From: Kappaphycus alvarezii
Taxonomy: Eukaryota; Rhodophyta; Florideophyceae; Gigartinales; Solieriaceae
Assembly: GCA_002205965.3 (NCBI GenBank)
Contig: NADL03000046.1
Location: forward strand, 1 to 64,000
Length of the DNA stretch: 64,000 nt
Direction of reading: 5' to 3'
Shown here: positions 10,292-62,640 of the stretch, piece by piece
Numbering within the stretch: the first letter of the stretch is position 1
Layout of the letters: every line of letters starts with the position of its first letter
Notes under the pieces: generated by a model
Told to the model about the DNA's origin: nothing
Database searches by the model: none
Seen by the model: only the letters and a program-made list of their open reading frames with translations
Program-made: the position numbers and the translations under genes

Positions 10292-10879
10292 AGAGAGAAT
10301 GACGCCTCTGCCCAGGATTGTAAAACAATGGCAAAGAAATCGAATCATGAAAGGGGAAGACTGGGTGGGCACGGTCCGGTGGTTGGCCGGATGGGTGATT
10401 GGCATGAAGCACGCAGCACATGGGAGCTGTCATATGGCGTTGGGATTCAAGGAAGGCACCTGCGCTGAAATGGCCATTTTTGAGTTCTGATCATTTTCCT
10501 TAGAGGCATTGGGGCGGGGTTTTCGTTGTATCATACCGCAGATGCACCAGAGTACCTGCAGATATGACATTGTTTGATGACCACTTAAAGTAATAAATTC
10601 GTATCGTGCACTGCACTGTACTGTACAGTGTACAGTACTGTACAGTATGTCCAAGAGACAGTTTGATCCAATTCGCCATACTGTAGATGTCAATGGTGAA
10701 AGGCATACTAATAAATATAGAAAACTTAGAATCTAAGTAATAATTGTACAATACGGAACGAGGGTAGCACGCAAACAACCCTTACTTACCTACAGAGACT
10801 GAGATAGTACAGTACTATAGAGGCCAGAGAAGTAGTATCTACTCCCCTATTTCCCAAGGAGATAAAAAATTTAGTGGCG
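10292..10879. repeat. Spacer with dense GTAC palindrome cluster
   Basis: No gene was recognised. At 10608-10649 the sequence is built from overlapping ACTGTAC/GTACAGT units (TGTACAGTGTACAGTACTG in its middle) that can fold back on themselves. A further TAGTACAGTACTA palindrome lies near 10806. Confidence 0.6.
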
Positions 10880-10951
10880 TAGTGGATAATAAATATAGAA
10901 ACTATAGATAAAATACACAACAAGTAACTAAGAAGAAAAATAGAACACAGC

Positions 10952-11972
10952 CTAGTAGTTTATTTTGCCTCCATTAGCCTTAAGAACTTCGGCGCAACTT
11001 TTTTTCATCGACTAAACTAGCTACTGAGGCACAGTTGCATCGATTTTGGCCCACTCTTGGTCAATTGCCACTTTTAAAGCAAGAAATGAGTCAAACTGCC
11101 TTCCGCTACTGTAAACAGCTCGCGCCAGGATACCCCATAAGTTTTTGATTGTGTTTAGGTCCGTGGACCGAGAAGGACGTTACTGTAATGGATTGGTGCA
11201 GGCCACTCCATTACAGTAACGTCCTTCTCAGAAAACCATGCCTTCGTATGCTGAGATACATGGATAAGGGCATTATCCTCCTGAAACACCTAATCGAATC
11301 CACGGTTGAACTGCAAAACCTAATAAATTTTTCTCCATTGTCGTACAATAACTTGTAGATACCTGCCTTCCATTCAAATAAACAATTGGACACTTGTCAA
11401 AGTAAGAGAATCAAGCCCAAATCATAACTGAACCACCTCCATTATAGCGCTTAGCCAATAACCTTTCTTCTTTACGGATATCATGCCAGTAATGCTTAAA
11501 CCCGTCTGGCCCATCCAAATTAAACTTTTTTATTTGAAAAGATTACTTTCTTCAAATCATTCAGTCCTTTGCCAACCATCTCTGTAGCCCAATCAAGTCT
11601 TGCTTTTTGTGGGCTGCGGTAAGCAGCTGAACCTGTTTAATCTTCTTGTATGTAAGAGTACTCGTTGCACGTAATATCTGCTGCACTCTCTTGTTGCCTA
11701 TTGGCAAATCCAAGGTGGTACAGACCTGTCCCGCCGATTTCTCACCCTTGTGTTGCCTCTCTTAGTAGTTGCCTTCTTTTGGCGGGAGATATTTTTGGCG
11801 GGCGTCCGCTGCGTTTCTCTTTTTCATACTTCTCCGGGGCTTGGATAAATGTCCACAACACCTTTTAAGAGCGATTTATTTTCGATGCGATAGAATCAAT
11901 CCTCTCCTCGGCACACCTCATCCTCATAATTTCCCCTTTTTCTTGCTCCGTGAGTGACTTTACGCGAGGCAT
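10952..11972 (-). pseudogene. Tc1-like transposase, inactive
   Basis: The gene starts at ATG 11972 (MPRVKSLTEQEKGEIMRMR, a helix-turn-helix start) and ends at TAG 10954-10952 after GGKINY. This gives about 340 codons, the normal family length. It encodes the DD34E enzyme that moves the element. The block VFQEDNALIHVSQHTKAWF keeps the second catalytic Asp. The first, normally FSDE, reads FSNK. The third, normally IENLWG, reads IKNLWG. Two of three catalytic acids are therefore replaced, both by G-to-A changes on the coding strand. There are also stops (for example in the N-terminal domain and after MIWA), at least one frameshift just after FSNK, and a 23-bp inverted duplication at 11170-11229. 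This copy cannot be active. Confidence 0.85.
11170..11229. repeat. Perfect 23-bp inverted duplication (hairpin)
   Basis: Arms 11170-11192 and 11207-11229 are exact reverse complements with a 14-base loop. Only one arm fits the transposase reading (EKDVTVMEWPA); the other replaces the bases that should precede the SPDLN-type segment. This looks like a snap-back templated insertion. Confidence 0.9.
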
Positions 11973-12135: not shown

Positions 12136-13290
12136 TTGGAATAATGCATTTACGTCGCTCGATACCATTTTTTTTAATTCTTTATTGCTGCTCTTTCTCT
12201 ATCTGACTAAGACGCCTTTCTAGAGTATTCTTTTAAGGCGGGGGCTGTAGTAAGTGTGCAGAACTCAGAAATCGGAGAAGTTTCTATATTTATTAGGCGC
12301 ACTGTAGGTCAATACTCCCGAATAAACAACACAACAAACATACGCTTTTAGTAAATGTTCACTAAACCGAGCTGGGTCACTCAGGCATCAGGTGATTCGA
12401 GAGACAAAGCACGGCGAGATACGGCATGGGCCGTCACCTGGAAAACGAGGAGGCGAGGGTGGCGACCAATCGGTGGTATTCATCGGATGGGAGTTTCCCG
12501 CGGCGGAGTGCAAAAAAGGAGGCGACTTTGGCCAGGGCCTCACGGGCAGGTTTCGATGGCTCCATGAGTATCGAATCCAAGAGGGTAGAATTGGGCTTGT
12601 ATTGTCCCACAGAGGGCAGTCCCAAACTTGTTTTCGTCAATAGGTGTACTCGCCAAAGAATAGTGCACCGGAATTTGAAAAGTGTACTTTCATAATGTTA
12701 CATGAAATTTCACAGATAAATCGGCGATTGGATAAGAACTGTTGGGCGATTTAAGACGCCAAATCATTTCCAGATCTCGAGATTTATACAGTATTTTGAG
12801 ACCTACAGTACAGTACTGTGCAGTGCTGCACACCACGGTAGTGGACTAAGCGGAGAAGCCCAGATTTTCACTGACCATCGCGGACAAGTGGTGAGATAAT
12901 CTCGACTCAAGCAACCAGGTTGTACATAGTCGAAGCGTTTCATGTGAACAATGATTCTATCGAACCGCAAACGGGAGCAGGCCGGAGATGCAGTACGGAG
13001 GATGTTTTCTCCAAAAGCAAGTGATTCCACTAAGGTCTTGAACACCCTCAAAGCGAGAGGCTGTACGGGAGTCCCTCCTCAACCCTTCGGGGTTGGCGGC
13101 GTTTTGTAACGTACTAGCCGGGTTACAATCATCAACATCATCTGTTTTCAATATCAACTCTTCACACTCTGGTGCATCAGTTCGATCGATAGAGTGAGGA
13201 ATTATCAAGGAACCTGGTTCCTGCACTCTGCTCCAGTTCGCGTACAACCGAAAACTCTCCTTGAAGCACTCCGTTTCCCCGGATGACAAT
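12136..13290. other. No recognised gene upstream of RlmN
   Basis: Overlapping ORFs lie at 12392-12695 on the plus strand and at 12640-12434 and 13289-12957 on the minus strand. None has family motifs. The minus ORF 13289-12957 (110 codons, MSSGETECFKESFRLYANW at its start) diverges from RlmN and could be a small real gene, but I cannot support it. A TACAGTACAGTACTGTGCAG cluster lies at 12805-12824. A plastid transit peptide or first exon for RlmN may be hidden here. Confidence 0.35.
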
Positions 13291-37035: not shown

Positions 37036-37490
37036 AAGACTTTAGCTAGGAACTGGGAGTTGAAGTGAAAGGACTGTTGTTTTTGAAAGATTTTCGCCAG
37101 CTCTAGCTGGTATTCTACTTGGAGCCTCAGCAAACTACAATTTATATACTACGCCAAGCTCACAACTACAGTCAAAACCAACTCCAAGGATAACCTAACC
37201 AACATTAAACTACAATTCACTACCCAAATTCATCACACAAAATCATCATGCCAGCATACTGTAATTTTACAAATCACAATATTGTAAATGTGCCAGCTCA
37301 TGCAAATAATAATACAACAACATATACCTGTAAACCTCGTGGCGTTCCCTGTACTATTCACCATAGTGCCTGTGCTGCACCACCTGTACCATATGTCAAT
37401 AGGGTATACCTGTACCTCATACAAACGTTGCAAACTGTCTTAGGTGTAAAATTAGAAACAAAAAGGATCGCCTCGAAAAAGTAGGAACGA
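37020..37490 (-). repeat. Solo LTR-like insertion within the gypsy fossil
   Basis: On the minus strand it is homologous to 21690-22205 (plus), with the same order of blocks and a TATATAAATTG box. No internal region of its own is next to it, so it looks like a solo LTR. Its presence inside the gypsy element dates it as younger than that element. Confidence 0.65.
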
Positions 37491-47364: not shown

Positions 47365-49070
47365 TGATCAGGACAAGTGACCCATTGTCTGAGATTTGAA
47401 TAAACTGTAACTGTCTTACGCAACAACTTGAGTAGTCTATGGAAATTGATTTATGTGCAGAAAATTATTCATAATTGCTTGCCGCGGCCAGCGGTAAAAG
47501 AGGTAGAAATACGAAGAAATTCACTGTTTTCGAATTTTACTGCAGCCCCCAAGTGCTACTTTATTACGTATTGAAGTAAAAAGAACACCAACAACATATT
47601 TTAACCTACCCAACTCGTCTACACCAGCAAACGTCTCCTGTTTTTTCAGACTCGCCGCTAACGCCTCCCACTTCTTTTATCTACGCTAAGCCTTGAATAT
47701 TCGCGACACTCAATGCTTGTTTTTTTGAAATAATTGTTATATTTCTTAACAACTTTAATAAATTACATATAATTTCCCCCGTTTTCAGGTCAGCAGCAGC
47801 GTTAATCACTGTAAACCATAATTCCTCGTATCGCATTGCTTTACTATTCACTTTACCGCAGAAATATGCAGGTGCAACATGCAAAGTGAATACCCAATTG
47901 GAGCTAACTTACATTACAAGAAATAGGTTTGAATAGGGTGTTGTAACAATCCAGAACCATATGAGTTGTTCTGGAGGGTTCCGGAGGGCTCTAGCGAGCA
48001 TGCTTAGCGTGGAAAATTTATTTTTGATTTTATTTTTGTAGTGCAATTGGCACTCGCACTTTACTGCCATCAGCAGAGCTGATTTTGGTGATCTTTTTTT
48101 GATCTGATTCACTGCTAACCAGCAGGCACTGTACTGTACAGTAAGGGAAATTTTCGCTTGTCGCCCACTATTTTTCCTGGTACTGTATACCCACCCGAGA
48201 GGCCATAAGGGCTTGCAATCCAAACCACTCGGCACACTCACAAATTGGACCTGATATTTTCGCTAAAGGCACGGATTGGGTCAAGTTTCGACTTTATTTA
48301 TCTCTAACTTGGATCCACCTTACTCGGTTGACCTTAACTTTACCCACCCCGCCGTCGTAGACAACCGTGACCTAGCTAACTATTATTTATACCTATCTTG
48401 CCACTAGGGACCCAGATTAAAGAGCCACCCCGGTGTTGGCTCTGACCTTTACTCCCATCTTCACCCTTTGCAGAAACCTTGCCGACGGCAACTTTCGCTG
48501 TAGCCACGTTTATCCGCCCGGGTCCCCAATTTTTATTTCCCCCCTCTATCCAATATTAAATATCCCTTTTGTTGTTTGTTTGTGATGTTTATTCACACTT
48601 GATGCCCCGGACTCTGGCGTCCATATAAAATAGGAACTTCAAGGTTGTCGTTGGTGACAACAGATCCTTATCAAGTTTCCAGCACTCCGCGGACCACGGT
48701 CCGGCCTTACAACCCGGAGGAAAAGTATACCGTCCAGCTGTTCAAGTAATAACCCCCGCTCTTCCAAATCCACTTCTCCTCGCCACAGGCGAGCTTTGAT
48801 ACTGCATCGCAGGGTGCTTAAAGAGAAAGAGGGACAGCGAGCACCCTGTGGGTCTTGGTGTGTATGTGTTGATTTTCTCATCGTCTGGCGGTGTTCCGTT
48901 CCTAAACGAGAAGAACTGCGCACCGCACATTGCACTACAATTTTGCATATTGCGCTGGATGCGCTGGCACTGGATGCAAGTTTTATTTTCGATTATTTTT
49001 AGATAGATGATTTCCATTGTAATGTAGCGGTGCGGAGCTGGCAAAGGTACTGCGCAGGTGCATGTGTGAG
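47365..49070. other. Repeat-bearing stretch without a recognised gene
   Basis: 47864-47943 is the direct repeat of 17868-17946. ORFs 48241-47909 and 48935-48639 (both minus) have no motifs. 48250-48620 is pyrimidine-rich with a CATATAAAATAGG box near 48621 and could be LTR-like, but no partner was found. Confidence 0.35.
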
Positions 49071-51005: not shown

Positions 51006-51110
51006 AGAGCCATGGACAGTACTGTACAGTACATGGCTCTCGTATTCCAAATTTGTGGCCATATACAGTACTGTACATGGCTCTCGGGACCATAACTTGT
51101 GGCCATAGGA
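51006..51110. repeat. Hairpin-forming tandem repeat with TACAGTACTGTACA cores
   Basis: Two units share ACAGTACTGTAC, CATGGCTCTCG and TTGTGGCCATA. The first unit is also a hairpin with arms AGAGCCATG (51006-51014) and CATGGCTCT (51032-51040) around the palindromic core. Confidence 0.7.
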
Positions 51111-53650: not shown

Positions 53651-54110
53651 AGTGTAGTTAGGACTTGCGCAGTCCCCAGTAGATACCGAATGTATTAAAC
53701 TTCTCAACATCCATATCAATAAATGTACAGTACCCTTCTAGAAAGGCTAATTTGAGGCCAGCTGTTTAATTTTGGCGACCGAAATAGTTTGCTCCCAATT
53801 TGTGAGAACAGACAGCCTCACCCTGCATTCACAAACCAAACTTCACCAATGGAAATACCATTATAGCATAGTCCTGGGAAATCGCGATGCCAGTTTGCGG
53901 CCTAATCTCTCAATAGATATGATTGTCTCGCCGAAATCTGCCCTGTTTTTGCTTGTCTCCATTTCAAAGAACATATCCCCTCACAATGCCACAGAACATG
54001 CGCAGACAGACCATTAACAGGTCTAAGTCCATCCAAACACGTGTGGAAAGGTCCACAAAACGAAAAAAACAGTAAATCTGCTTCATGTTCGGACAAAGCG
54101 AAAGTTAAGA

Positions 54111-55532
54111 ATGAGCAATAGCCAAATTGCAAAGCTCACTTCTGTTCCGCGTAGTTTTTTCGATGAGCTGGCAAATTGCCTACAAGATAAAGACCAAGCG
54201 GCCATTGACGCCCTTAAAAGCCCAGATACAAAACCAGGGCGACGAACTGTGCTCTCCGAAGAAGAAGAGAACATTGTGGTGAGAAGGTTACAGTTCTTGT
54301 CTGCAAATGGAGCTGCAATTGGCTACTAGGGAATGAAGTACATGATGGCAAACGTTGCTGGAGCCGTTCGAAAGTGATTTGCCAAGGGCTTCCCATGCAA
54401 CGAGATTATTCTATCATTTCGTGAGCGTCAAAGAAAGCTCACTTTTAGGGCTCAAGAAAACAAAGAGATATCGAAGTTCACTGCAGAAAGCGAGCTCCAT
54501 GTCAAACCATTTTTTGAAATGATTTCATACCTGGAGAATATGAACCCCAGGCTTCTTTCTAACACACATAGGATATGGAATTTGGATGAAACAGCCGTGG
54601 ATGTCCATACGGCAAGAAAGAAAAAGTGTTCAGTTCTGCTTCCACTCACCATGGTGGATCACGCAAATGCAAAACAACCTTTACCTCAGAGAAGCATATT
54701 ACTGCCGTAGTTTGCATATCTGCAAGTGGAATCAAGACCCCCCTTTTTTATTGTGAAAGGGAAGTGAATCAACGAGCAATTGTTTGACCCAATTGATTGG
54801 TTACTTCCCAATGGTGAAGCTGCGTCAGGTATTTGCGCCAAGTTCTCCCTTTCGGGATGGTTCCCTAGGGACAGCGCGGTTGTGAAGGATAGCGAGGAGG
54901 GATCCATGGAGATGGGAATTCTGGAGTCCGCAGTCAAGCATATTTGCACAACCGTACGAGAGAAGGTAGGGAATGCATCCGTGCTCCTGACTTTGGACGG
55001 GTACGCCTCAAGAAATGGTGTCGGATGGGTGGAAGAATGTCGTCGTCGAAATATTATCGCCGTCATAGCACCCGCTAACACCTCCCATTTTCTTCAACCA
55101 TGTGATCAGGATGTTAACGCTAAATTTAAGAGAGCTGGTAGAGAGCTGCAAAACTGCTTCCTTCGCCAAGGTGACTTTGATACCCGAAAAGTTAACTTTA
55201 ACTTGGCGTGCGGTGTCTATGGGTTTGAGCAAGTATCGGCTTCCGACATAACGAACAGCTTTGTAAAGACCGGACTATTTCCCTTTCAACTTGACTTTGG
55301 TCGAAAGTTCCGTCAGAATATCGACACGTTGAAGGAAGAGCCATCTAAAAGAATTTCGCACACCGAAGGGCTCACTGTCGGTTCCCGTCGTTTTCCAGTT
55401 TTGCTTCGCCAATCAGAAAATATAACGTTCCAGAAACTGGAGCGAGTAATTGAGAACGCTGGTAGACCATCGAGCGCCATCCAAGAGGTATGTGTCCTAC
55501 TCAAAAACGCAAAACACTTAACGACATTGTAA
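54111..55532 (+). pseudogene. pogo-like DDE_1 transposase, broken
   Basis: The start at 54111 (MSNSQIAKLTSVPRSFFDEL) leads into a helix-turn-helix region with PGRRTVLSEEEENIVVRRL. The catalytic Asp contexts are WNLDETAV (about 54580), LLTLDGYASRNGV (about 54985) and LQPCDQDVNAKF (about 55100), as in the DDE_1 superfamily. In-frame stops at 54327-54329 (TAG) and 54375-54377 (TGA) and two frame changes near 54650 and 54750 break the first half. The second half (54780-55532, 250 codons) is open. All three catalytic acids are kept. It would move its own element by cut and paste at TA sites. Confidence 0.8.
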
Positions 55533-55619
55533 TGGGTTCTAAATCGACCAACACGGGATCTATAGCTACAAGCGCGAACGGTCCGAGACGTTTGTAAAAT
55601 CCTGGAGCACCTGCGGAGT

Positions 55620-56056
55620 GCGTTACTCTGAATGGGAACTTTGACAGACTGAAAAGGAAAGAGCAAGCCTGGAGGGAAGAAAAGGAACGTATAACTGCAG
55701 AAAAAGCTCGAAAAGAACAAATACGGATCCATAAAAAGACTGAAGCCATAAAAAGCCGTGCTGAAACGGAATTGCAGAGAGAGGCCAAGCGCATAAAGAA
55801 AGCGTCTGCTAAGTTGCTTGCGGAGCAACAAAAGGAGGCTAGAAGGAAAGAGAGGGCTGCAAAAGCAGAGCGAAAGAAGCTCGATCGAGTTCTGATCGCG
55901 GGGTTGGTGCAATACCCTATGGTAATGTATCGAGTGGTAGGGCTTCGTGAAGGCTCCGGATCCCACCCGAGATGTGTAAAGAGGCTCTTGGATGCTCGAC
56001 TTGTGGCAGCTAGTGTTATGGTCGAGGTTCTAAACAAGTCAATGGTAGGGAACTAG
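55620..56056 (+). CDS. Coiled-coil C-terminal segment of the pogo-like element
   Basis: A strongly charged Lys/Glu/Ala stretch (EEKERITAEKARKEQ, then KKASAKLLAEQQKEARRKER) ends in a short globular tail at TAG 56054-56056. It follows the transposase by less than 100 bp in a different frame. It is either the transposase C-terminus displaced by a frame change or a separate small ORF. Coiled coils in this position occur in jerky/Tigger-type proteins. Confidence 0.55.
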
Positions 56057-56459
56057 GTGTTTTTCCAGGAAACGGTGGCCAAAATTAGGCCTTCTTTCTC
56101 CTATTTTGGTTGTAGCGACGACAATCAGAAAAATAAAGCCGATAAGTCTTCAGTAGTCCGCTCTTTGCAAAATAGGTGTCTATTAAGACCTTTTTTCAAC
56201 GTTGAGTCCGTTGGTGTGCTCTTCAGTTGAATTTGAGTAATTTTTCGATTTTTTTCTTTTAAGTTGCGTTCGGTGGCCAAAAAATAGCCTTTCTGAAAGG
56301 CTACTGTACAGCACTGTACTTCCCGGGCGTCAGTTTGGCGGTCCGAAAATGCTGTGTAATTTTACATAGCAGAAGTAACGATTGACTAATTATTTTATTA
56401 AATCTTGATGATGTGCTTATTCTGAAATGGCCAAATATTAATAAATGGCTCGCGCTGTA

Positions 56460-56600
56460 CAATAGGTCTCTCCACCAAAGGCTGGGTGATATCTAAATCA
56501 TTTGATAAATGATGATTGACTTAGAGTGAATATATATCGTCGAATCCAAGAGGATTGATAATGTACCTGGCGGAAATTACTGTATACTCTTGTTGTACAG
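56460..56600. repeat. Inverted partner of 62470-62605
   Basis: Shared blocks include GGTCTCTCCACCAAAG, AAATGATGATTGACTT and CGTCGAATCMAAGAGGATTG against the reverse complement of 62470-62605. The flanks contain TACTGTA motifs. No coding potential was seen, so a MITE or terminal fragment is likely. Confidence 0.75.
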
Positions 56601-56749
56601 CACGAACCATTTAATAATATGTGGCCATTTCAGAATAAGCACATCATTAAAATTTAATGAAACAATTAGTCAGACGTTACCTACGCTGTGTAAAATAAAA
56701 AAGCATTTTCGGACCGCCCAAACTAACTTCCGAGGGGTACAGTACAGTA

Positions 56750-58100
56750 CAATCGTTGATATAGATTCTGCCTTTCGCCATGCCAAGCGTCGCGATACTG
56801 CTTGTGGGACGACAAACAACTACCTCTGTATCTCCTGTTAGCCCTCGCGCTACTGCCCCTGCTCCTCGAGCTCCTCAATACATTTACACACCTCCCCCTT
56901 AAAGTATGGTACACAGATGACGGAAACCTCATTGTGGCACTGAAAAACGCTCGCTCGGTGCTCGGGTTTCCCCCTGACCGTGAACGGCCTCTGGTTTCCA
57001 CATCAAAATTTCCCGCGACCAGACTGCTGCATGGCCGCAGACCACCAGTCCCAGGACCTCCTAACCACCGCCGCAATGTCGTGCGACTTCAAGACCGCGG
57101 AGGTCACTACTGTGATCGGAAGCCCGGTTGGTAGTACCGCGGGATGCCTTCGCCTCCTTGACGATAACCTCGACACTATCCGAACTTTCTGGACGTCCCT
57201 TGTCATGTTGAACGACCCCCATCTCGCTTTTCAGATTCATCGCTTATGGGCATCCTCCTGTCGGCTTTGATATCTTTTTCGCAGTGCCTCCGTCGCATTT
57301 AACCGCTTCCCTTCCCAAGTCCTTTGACGAGAGAATGCGAAGGGTGTTCGAAACCATACGTGGCCGCCAAACCGACACAGGCTGGACCCAGGCTACACTG
57401 CCCTTTCGCTCTGGTGGCCTCGGCTTATGTTAACCCCAAGGAGTTCACATTATCGGCGTACGCAGTATCTCTCCTCACGAATTGTGCAATGGTAAAACAG
57501 GTTCTTGGCTATTCCCCGCTCCGCACTGTCCATCTCCTCGCTCCATCATATGAACCCCTTTCAATCGCCCTCAACCTCCCTGCTGACCTCCAACTATGGA
57601 ATTTGGTGTCGAGGACGTCCCGACAGGAAGCTTCCAACCCCCGTCATCTCTAGCAAGAAATAACCGAACACCTCCACACCGACATATCACTCCGTCTTCA
57701 ACAGCAAACAACCGCATCCCCACTCATCGCCGTGCCCGCTTGGCAGCCGCTGCCTCCACAGCCGCATCCGCTCTATTCACACCCTACCATTATTCAGGAA
57801 CCACTACATCGAGGCCGAGGTCCGTAGCACTATGGATGATGTTCGCCTCGGTAACCCTACGTTGGAATGCTCTCGTCTCTGCCCGATGTGCGCGACAAGC
57901 ACCGCTCAGCACTTCCCAATACTTGGTGCACCCGGTCACCACCAGTCCGTTTGTAAAAGCGCGGCAGGGGCACGAGGCGGCACAACCGCTCACGCTACAC
58001 TCGACATCTTTCCCCTAGCTCTGTGGTGTCAAACTCTGCGGATCTTTCTCCCTCCTCCCGTTCCGTATCCATTCGGATTGACGAAGGCCGTTTCATAAAA
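56750..58100 (+). mobile_element. LINE (non-LTR retrotransposon) fragment, plus copy
   Basis: The reverse transcriptase active site is visible as VWYTDDGNLIVAL at about 56905-56945, preceded by LLALALLPLLLELL. It is followed by SPVGSTAGCLRLLDDNLDTI (about 57130) and connection/thumb segments. A Cys/His motif (CPMC..STAQHFPILGAPGHH..VC, about 57880-57955) and GARGGTTAHATLD follow. 5' and 3' ends are missing: upstream of 56750 is unrelated, and the PLAFDS tail is absent. Breaks are fewer than in the minus copy, perhaps four. Confidence 0.75.
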
Positions 58101-62379: not shown

Positions 62380-62640
62380 TGACCAACAGTATTTCACGGG
62401 CAACCCTCGTTGCCCGGAATACATTGGCTCATTCGGAGTATCCCTCATATATGGTAGAGGGGTCTAATAAGAGGATGCAGTAATTTCCACCAGGTACAAT
62501 ATCAATCCTCTTTGATTCGACGATATACTGTACAATTACTGTAAGTCAATCATCATTTACCAAATCATAGAGATATCATCCAGTCTTTGGTGGAGAGACC
62601 TACTGGGACACAGCCACCCACATCTTTCAAATATTAAAGA
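62380..62640. repeat. Cluster of three dispersed repeats
   Basis: In order: the foldback copy 2 (62387-62423, inverted to 51135-51172), a block at 62415-62475 (inverted to 50320-50385), and a block at 62470-62605 (inverted to 56460-56600). The first two have the same relative order, mirrored, at 50.3-51.2 kb, with about 750 bp between them there. Confidence 0.7.

Follow-up and report, generated by a model that had tools for sequence, protein, structure and literature searches.

TACAGTA/TACTGTA heptamers in the Kappaphycus alvarezii genome as likely excision footprints of TA-inserting DNA transposons

Our analysis of 64 kb of the Kappaphycus alvarezii genome (bases 1-64000 of contig C46, hereafter the window) shows that the heptamers TACAGTA and TACTGTA occur in large excess, both there and in a sample of the rest of the genome. 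We consider it likely, judging from sequence, that they are the excision footprints of at least one DNA transposon that inserted at TA, ended in CAG...CTG and was cut with a 3-nt stagger. Insertion of such an element would duplicate the TA, and staggered excision followed by end joining would leave TA-CAG-TA or TA-CTG-TA, so that the site ends up 5 bp longer. The TAs of such footprints could in turn be hit by further elements, giving rise to TA(CWGTA)n arrays, and a pogo-like element at 53733-56301, together with the MITE-like element that adjoins it, would have arrived later in such an array.

Results

The motif excess is confirmed in the window and in the genome sample. The window holds 66 copies of TACAGTA/TACTGTA, compared with a mean of 5.6 and a maximum of 11 in 100 dinucleotide shuffles. 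From the genome (336,021,096 bases in 884 contigs), we sampled 18 other stretches of 10 kb (L009-L026), which make 180 kb, or 244 kb with the window. These stretches contain 126 copies against 15.2 expected, the highest value of all 7-mers and an excess of about 0.6 copies per kb, and every one of the 18 carries the motif, with 1 to 16 copies each. Over the full 244 kb, 192 copies compare with 20.9 expected under a first-order model and 33.9 under a second-order model. The initial annotation had reported that these 7-mers recur dozens of times and had called for a count against a shuffled model; the recurrence and the excess both stand, in the window and in the 180-kb sample.

The excess is specific in both the bases flanking the CAG and the spacing. 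Among TA-N3-TA words in the window, TACAGTA/TACTGTA is the sole large outlier (66 versus 5.7 expected), and the next word reaches a z of 3.2. At other spacings, most of the words that score highly contain TACWGTA or have tiny counts, such as TACACGTGTA, with 3 copies against 0.03 expected. Among the 16 words of the form XY-CAG-XY, TA alone is far out (192 versus 20.9), the next ratio being that of CGCAGCG (30 versus 15.8), which is the specificity for TA duplications that footprints predict.

A motif excess alone is not diagnostic, because the viral-contig loci L001 (15 versus 1.6) and L002 (15 versus 2.6) show it as well. Seven viral contigs with TACTGTACAGTACTGTA have observed/expected motif counts of 15/1.6, 15/2.6, 4/3.3, 3/0.6, 9/1.4, 3/0.8 and 7/2.4, but they are no neutral control because they were picked by that very sequence. 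L002 (IMGVR_UViG_2595698293_000001) is 11 kb of AT-rich DNA in which the copies of TACAGTA are mostly single.

Comparing repeat copies provides a view of sites with and without the motif. Comparing all of the 244 kb with itself gave 146 alignments with eight 5-bp gaps, two of which set TACWGTA against TA. One is the TACTGTA at 62526..62532 (+) of the window, where the paralogue at 56460-56594 is shorter by 5 bp, and the other lies between L018 and L014. The same comparison yielded 72 motif-by-alignment observations, a redundant count that includes both directions; many motifs are common to both copies, and some differ by substitution. At 37257, both available paralogues carry other letters, with no 5-bp gap.

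A genome search with the LTR-like repeat L018:1510-2475 scored 40 places out of 523 candidates, and we aligned 40 copies (38 further copies plus L018 and L014; 38,791 bases, mean divergence 0.119), calling an insertion private if it occurs in at most three copies and skipping 40 columns at the left edge and 60 at the right. Four private insertions are 5 bp long, and each follows the pattern TA to TA-NNN-TA, where NNN is CAG or CTG in three and CCG in one. L044 reads TACAGTA where the other copies have GA (31), TA (4), AA (2) or TG (1); L018 and the near-identical L027 read TACTGTA where 19 others have TAT; L029 reads CAGTACAGTA where other copies have CAGTA, a nested case; and L041 reads TACCGTA in the position of the L018 insertion, but is treated as a case apart from L018/L027 because its letters differ. 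The other private insertions comprise 28 of 1 bp, two of 2 bp, three of 3 bp, six of 4 bp, and one each of 8, 9 and 13 bp. Three of the six 4-bp entries are the L018/L027 and L041 cases, which are 5 bp by aligned columns and fall in this class through gap placement. Many motifs within repeats were inherited or created by substitution; in this family the motif is ancestral at two columns, and at one other site substitution produced it in two copies (columns 944, 987 and 910). L018 1510-2475 and L027 (C590:3051906-3052873) are practically identical, lie on two contigs and carry the same footprint, which points to a recent duplication or an assembly overlap.

A net 5-bp gain relative to an empty copy is thus present in L044, L018/L027 and L029 as well as at 62526 of the window. 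We infer that excision lies behind this gain and that end joining would have been the repair. By our estimate, genome-wide density and a neutral steady state would predict about 14 to 23 footprints in the 40-copy repeat, whereas three CWG insertions were found. This shortfall, several-fold relative to the density, would mean that repeats of this kind are poor targets or that footprints are mostly older, and it speaks against steady activity.

These same sites bear on a reading without excision, in which motif-rich repeats were copied and grew locally in tandem. Repeat copies do share motifs, there is a 12-bp tandem array at 1375-1436, and AAAGTACAGT occurs in tandem copies in L022. However, most arrays (151 of 169) consist of a single site in unrelated flanks, and the L044 and L018 insertions lack a local template, since the adjoining empty copies have no CAG or CTG to duplicate. 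We therefore regard copying as an improbable source of the motif as a whole. LTR-like repeats with 12-bp tandem units that contain TACAGTA are found at 1375-1436 of the window and at 2509-2715 and 7455-7650 of L022, so local motif density is partly inherited in this way.

The excision reading would also account for the arrays. The window has 53 single, five double and one triple exact TA(CWGTA)n arrays, and the 244 kb have 169 arrays holding 192 units (151 single, 14 double, three triple and one quadruple). The triple array of the window (10631-10647) is part of a footprint cluster at 10619..10647 (+). The double arrays, all on the + strand, lie at 12804..12815, at 48132..48143, where the L015 and L016 copies differ, at 51020..51031, at 51064..51075 and at 56738..56749, the last reading TACAGTACAGTA. 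A near-perfect hairpin at 11170-11229, with arms 90% alike, has TACTGTA and TACAGTA at mirror positions, and a hairpin at about 1459-1481 of L016 resembles it. In the inverted duplication of L026, the array at 2662 lies outside the duplicated part.

Flanks and near-matches add to this picture. When 145 distinct single sites are compared with other TAs, the difference resides mainly in the immediately neighboring positions, with G preceding the motif and C following it (0.39). Outside the exact arrays, the seven one-substitution neighbors that differ by a transition number 311 against 165.3 expected, and the 13 that differ by a transversion number 449 against 349.1; this transition-biased excess supports a decay pattern of TACWGTA. 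One might propose instead that selection maintains a GTAC-centered word for a regulatory or structural role, given that GTAC-containing words are enriched too and that the motif is clustered, with 38 of 150 array spacings below 60 bp against 7.9 expected. This is quite improbable in view of the exact 5-bp gains at TA within repeats, the transition-biased neighbors and the near-random flanks. The view of the initial annotation that the 7-mers are excision footprints of a TA-inserting element is supported by the filled and empty sites, the 3-nt spacing, the TA specificity, the nesting and the decay.

The same annotation had placed an exact pogo-like element at 53728..56306, with CAGTA ends, and had suggested that these ends may explain the 7-mers. 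A pogo-type transposase remnant with inverted ends is indeed present, and its arms, at about 53.73-56.30 kb, are 37 nt long and 84% complementary. The boundaries have to be moved inward to 53733..56301 (+), with terminal inverted repeats at 53733-53754 and 56280-56301 and TA target-site duplications at 53731..53732 and 56302..56303. These termini are common to L065, L068, L072, L074, L075 and L076, and the relatives end in TA followed by CCCTTCCAGAAAGG. In L065 and L075, TA is followed by CCCTTCCAGAAAGGCTAATTTT or nearly so at both ends, starting TA-CCCTTCC, in unrelated flanks, and L072 and L074 have the same terminus. CAG stands outside the TA at four of the 12 termini in seven sequences (both in the window, one in L072 and one in L074) and is absent from eight.

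Because none of the four ends of L065 and L075 carries CAGTA and their flanks are unrelated, CAGTA/TACTG belongs to the target site and not to the element. The pre-insertion site, TACAG-TA-CTGTACAGCACTGTA, was therefore itself an array, of which TACAG at 53726..53730 (+) is the left part and CTGTACAGCACTGTA at 56304..56318 (+) the right part. From its termini, the pogo-like element appears to be a later arrival in an older scar array whose source lies elsewhere. The inner TA of CAGTA is uninformative here, because TACAGTA would be left behind by every TA-inserting element with CAG ends.

That the family of the pogo-like element has CAGTA ends and left the footprints is accordingly very improbable, even though the window copy is flanked by TACAGTA and TACTGTA and CAG adjoins four of 12 subfamily termini. 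Since the ends are CCCTTC, its own 3-nt footprint should be TACCCTA/TAGGGTA, which occurs only 28 times in the 244 kb against 18.2 expected. The footprint of a second pogo subfamily, TATCCTA, occurs 27 times against 24.6.

The longest open part of the broken transposase, 250 amino acids at 54780..55529 (+), matches DDE_1 (PF03184; E 4.5e-10, 39.8 bits, cut-off 22) and has, by hand count, 35 residues separating its second catalytic D from the third. For a CENP-B/HTH-type DNA-binding domain, the profile scan in the window covered this open part, and the longer homologue P0006 gave DDE_1 alone. The frame is broken by stops and shifts, as seen from its split match to P0002 and P0006. The element shares a DDE_1 domain, a TA duplication and inverted ends with the pogo superfamily. 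The genome yielded 706 first-look PF03184 candidates, of which 150 were scored, some in long stop-free frames, and 12 of the scored loci were read for termini. Eight metagenomic proteins resemble the open part. No relatives of the pogo protein or end pattern were found in viral_contigs, from which records of this genome are possibly excluded; the PDB search gave a single match (E 0.51), and the Rfam search gave none at gathering level. The longest stretch between stops in the window is 254 codons, and one frame at the edge encodes C2H2 zinc fingers.

Directly to the right of the pogo-like element and to the left of the double array at 56738..56749 is a palindromic MITE-like element at 56319..56737 (wider extent 56305-56751), with putative ends CTTCCCGGGCG and CCCCTCGGAAG after TA and CWGTA units on both sides. 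Its outer edge is uncertain because the arms also align through the flanking CWGTA units. A second copy of the inner 135 bp lies at 62466-62605.

A scan of the 244 kb for TA-bounded inverted ends (at least 18/24 matching, 80-5,000 bp apart) found no complete CAG-ended element, the sole CAG-led pair being the pogo-like element in its target. That the motifs are instead the ends of resident small elements or internally eliminated segments, whose ends in ciliates have a consensus similar to TACAGTA/TACTGTA, is very improbable, and we rejected it on pair orientation: pairs 12-60 bp apart, the only bin leaning inward, number 16 inward and 10 outward, but over 12-3,000 bp there are 115 inward, 162 outward and 283 in the same orientation. 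Repeat copies, moreover, are set apart by 5 bp rather than by a segment.

With the motifs read as footprints, our best guess for their source, with about an even chance of being right, is a Tc1-like CAG-ended family, because such transposases are numerous and the window has a remnant with one probable TA-CAGTGC end. PF13358 gave 1,153 first-look candidates in the genome, and 150 of 150 scored above the cut-off, many of them stop-free. The one locus read, L077, encodes 368 aa in an unbroken frame that contains DDE_3 and Tc3-type domains, and its best named homologues, among 120 listed of 814, are from Aphanomyces and Phytophthora. Its ends are perfect 24-bp CACTGGTGACTGATGCCATAGGAC with TA on both sides and CTACTGTACAG to the left of its TA; they begin in CAC, not CAG. 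The word TACACGTGTA, which CAC/GTG ends such as these would produce if both were kept, occurs five times in the 244 kb against 0.1 expected.

The remnant in the window, at 10955..11972 (-), was found when the protein of L077 served as tblastn query (E 1e-39 and 35% over 269 columns for the best piece). Its probable terminus, TA followed by CAGTGCGCCTAATAAATATAGAAACTTCTC, lies at 12275..12306 (-) and has a partial inverted match at 10878-10907; the sequence at 12304, TA followed by CAGTGCGCC, is the sole probable CAG-type terminus seen. TACAGTGC occurs 14 times in the window against 1.4 expected. Of the TACAGTG pairs, 14 face inward and 15 outward, and a single one reaches at least 13/24, which leaves TACAGTGC unsupported as resident Tc1 termini in general. 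A further candidate for the CAG-ended source, L017 3084-5611, was rejected because CAG is missing where its GGGGAA terminus recurs in other copies. L014 4558-6849 is TA-bounded, has AAG ends (21/24) and adjoins a frame that encodes a Tc5-type DNA-binding domain.

Discussion

Scars may also promote further scars. We tentatively raise the possibility, which we think rather unlikely, that G-TA-C scars, at best the palindrome CAG-TA-CTG, are better targets than an ordinary TA, so that arrays would act as landing pads for TA-inserting families of several unrelated kinds, the CAG-ended source itself having become rare or extinct. Extrapolation from the 18 sampled stretches would put the genome-wide load at about 200,000 scars. 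Extra units occupy 23 of 361 array TAs (about 6%), compared with arrays at 169 of 14,703 TAs (about 1%). A CWGTA unit adjoins three of the five pogo copies read at both ends, the MITE-like element of the window and the Tc1-like L077, but none of eight termini of the TCCCTCCC pogo subfamily. Landing in old scars is suggested by these cases, which were noticed after the fact and form no independent test set.

Excision scars have usually been studied one locus at a time. Where a scar is the top 7-mer of a genome, word counts would become a record of vanished transposons, of their history, their rate and their targeting, and frame-changing 5-bp insertions would be a notable class of small mutation. 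The pogo-like element also gives a warning, as neighboring scars may be taken for an element's own termini. We found no genome-wide footprint word in the titles or abstract openings of the literature searched, outside of which most subscription papers fall. What is new here is the footprint load and its nesting; short scars at TA were already known.

One of the closest known systems is Sleeping Beauty, of the Tc1 type. Its consensus footprints, as given in an excerpt of PMC4378557, are TACAGTA and TACTGTA at the former TA insertion site, although an excerpt of PMC2874221 disagrees and gives TAG(T/A)CTA. Unlike that system, the present genome has nested arrays, a sampled excess of some 0.6 copies per kb and a source that is putative. 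Passer (pogo type) and ZB (Tc1 type) are likewise TA-inserting with short scars, and the comparison extends to footprint length only, 0-4 bp for Passer in the part of PMC9976928 consulted and 0-3 bp for ZB in that of PMC7913693. The pogo superfamily with DD35D (Passer, Fot/Fot-like), as outlined in a portion of PMC7386202, shares with the window element a DDE_1 domain, 35 residues between the last two D, a TA duplication and inverted ends of 22-37 nt, a likeness drawn from the catalytic part and ends, the window copy being broken. Finally, Tc1/Tc3-like elements (DDE_3) are numerous in this genome, and L077 has an intact frame, perfect 24-bp ends and TA; it differs from the putative footprint source in its CAC ends, and the single probable CAG-type terminus is that at 12304.
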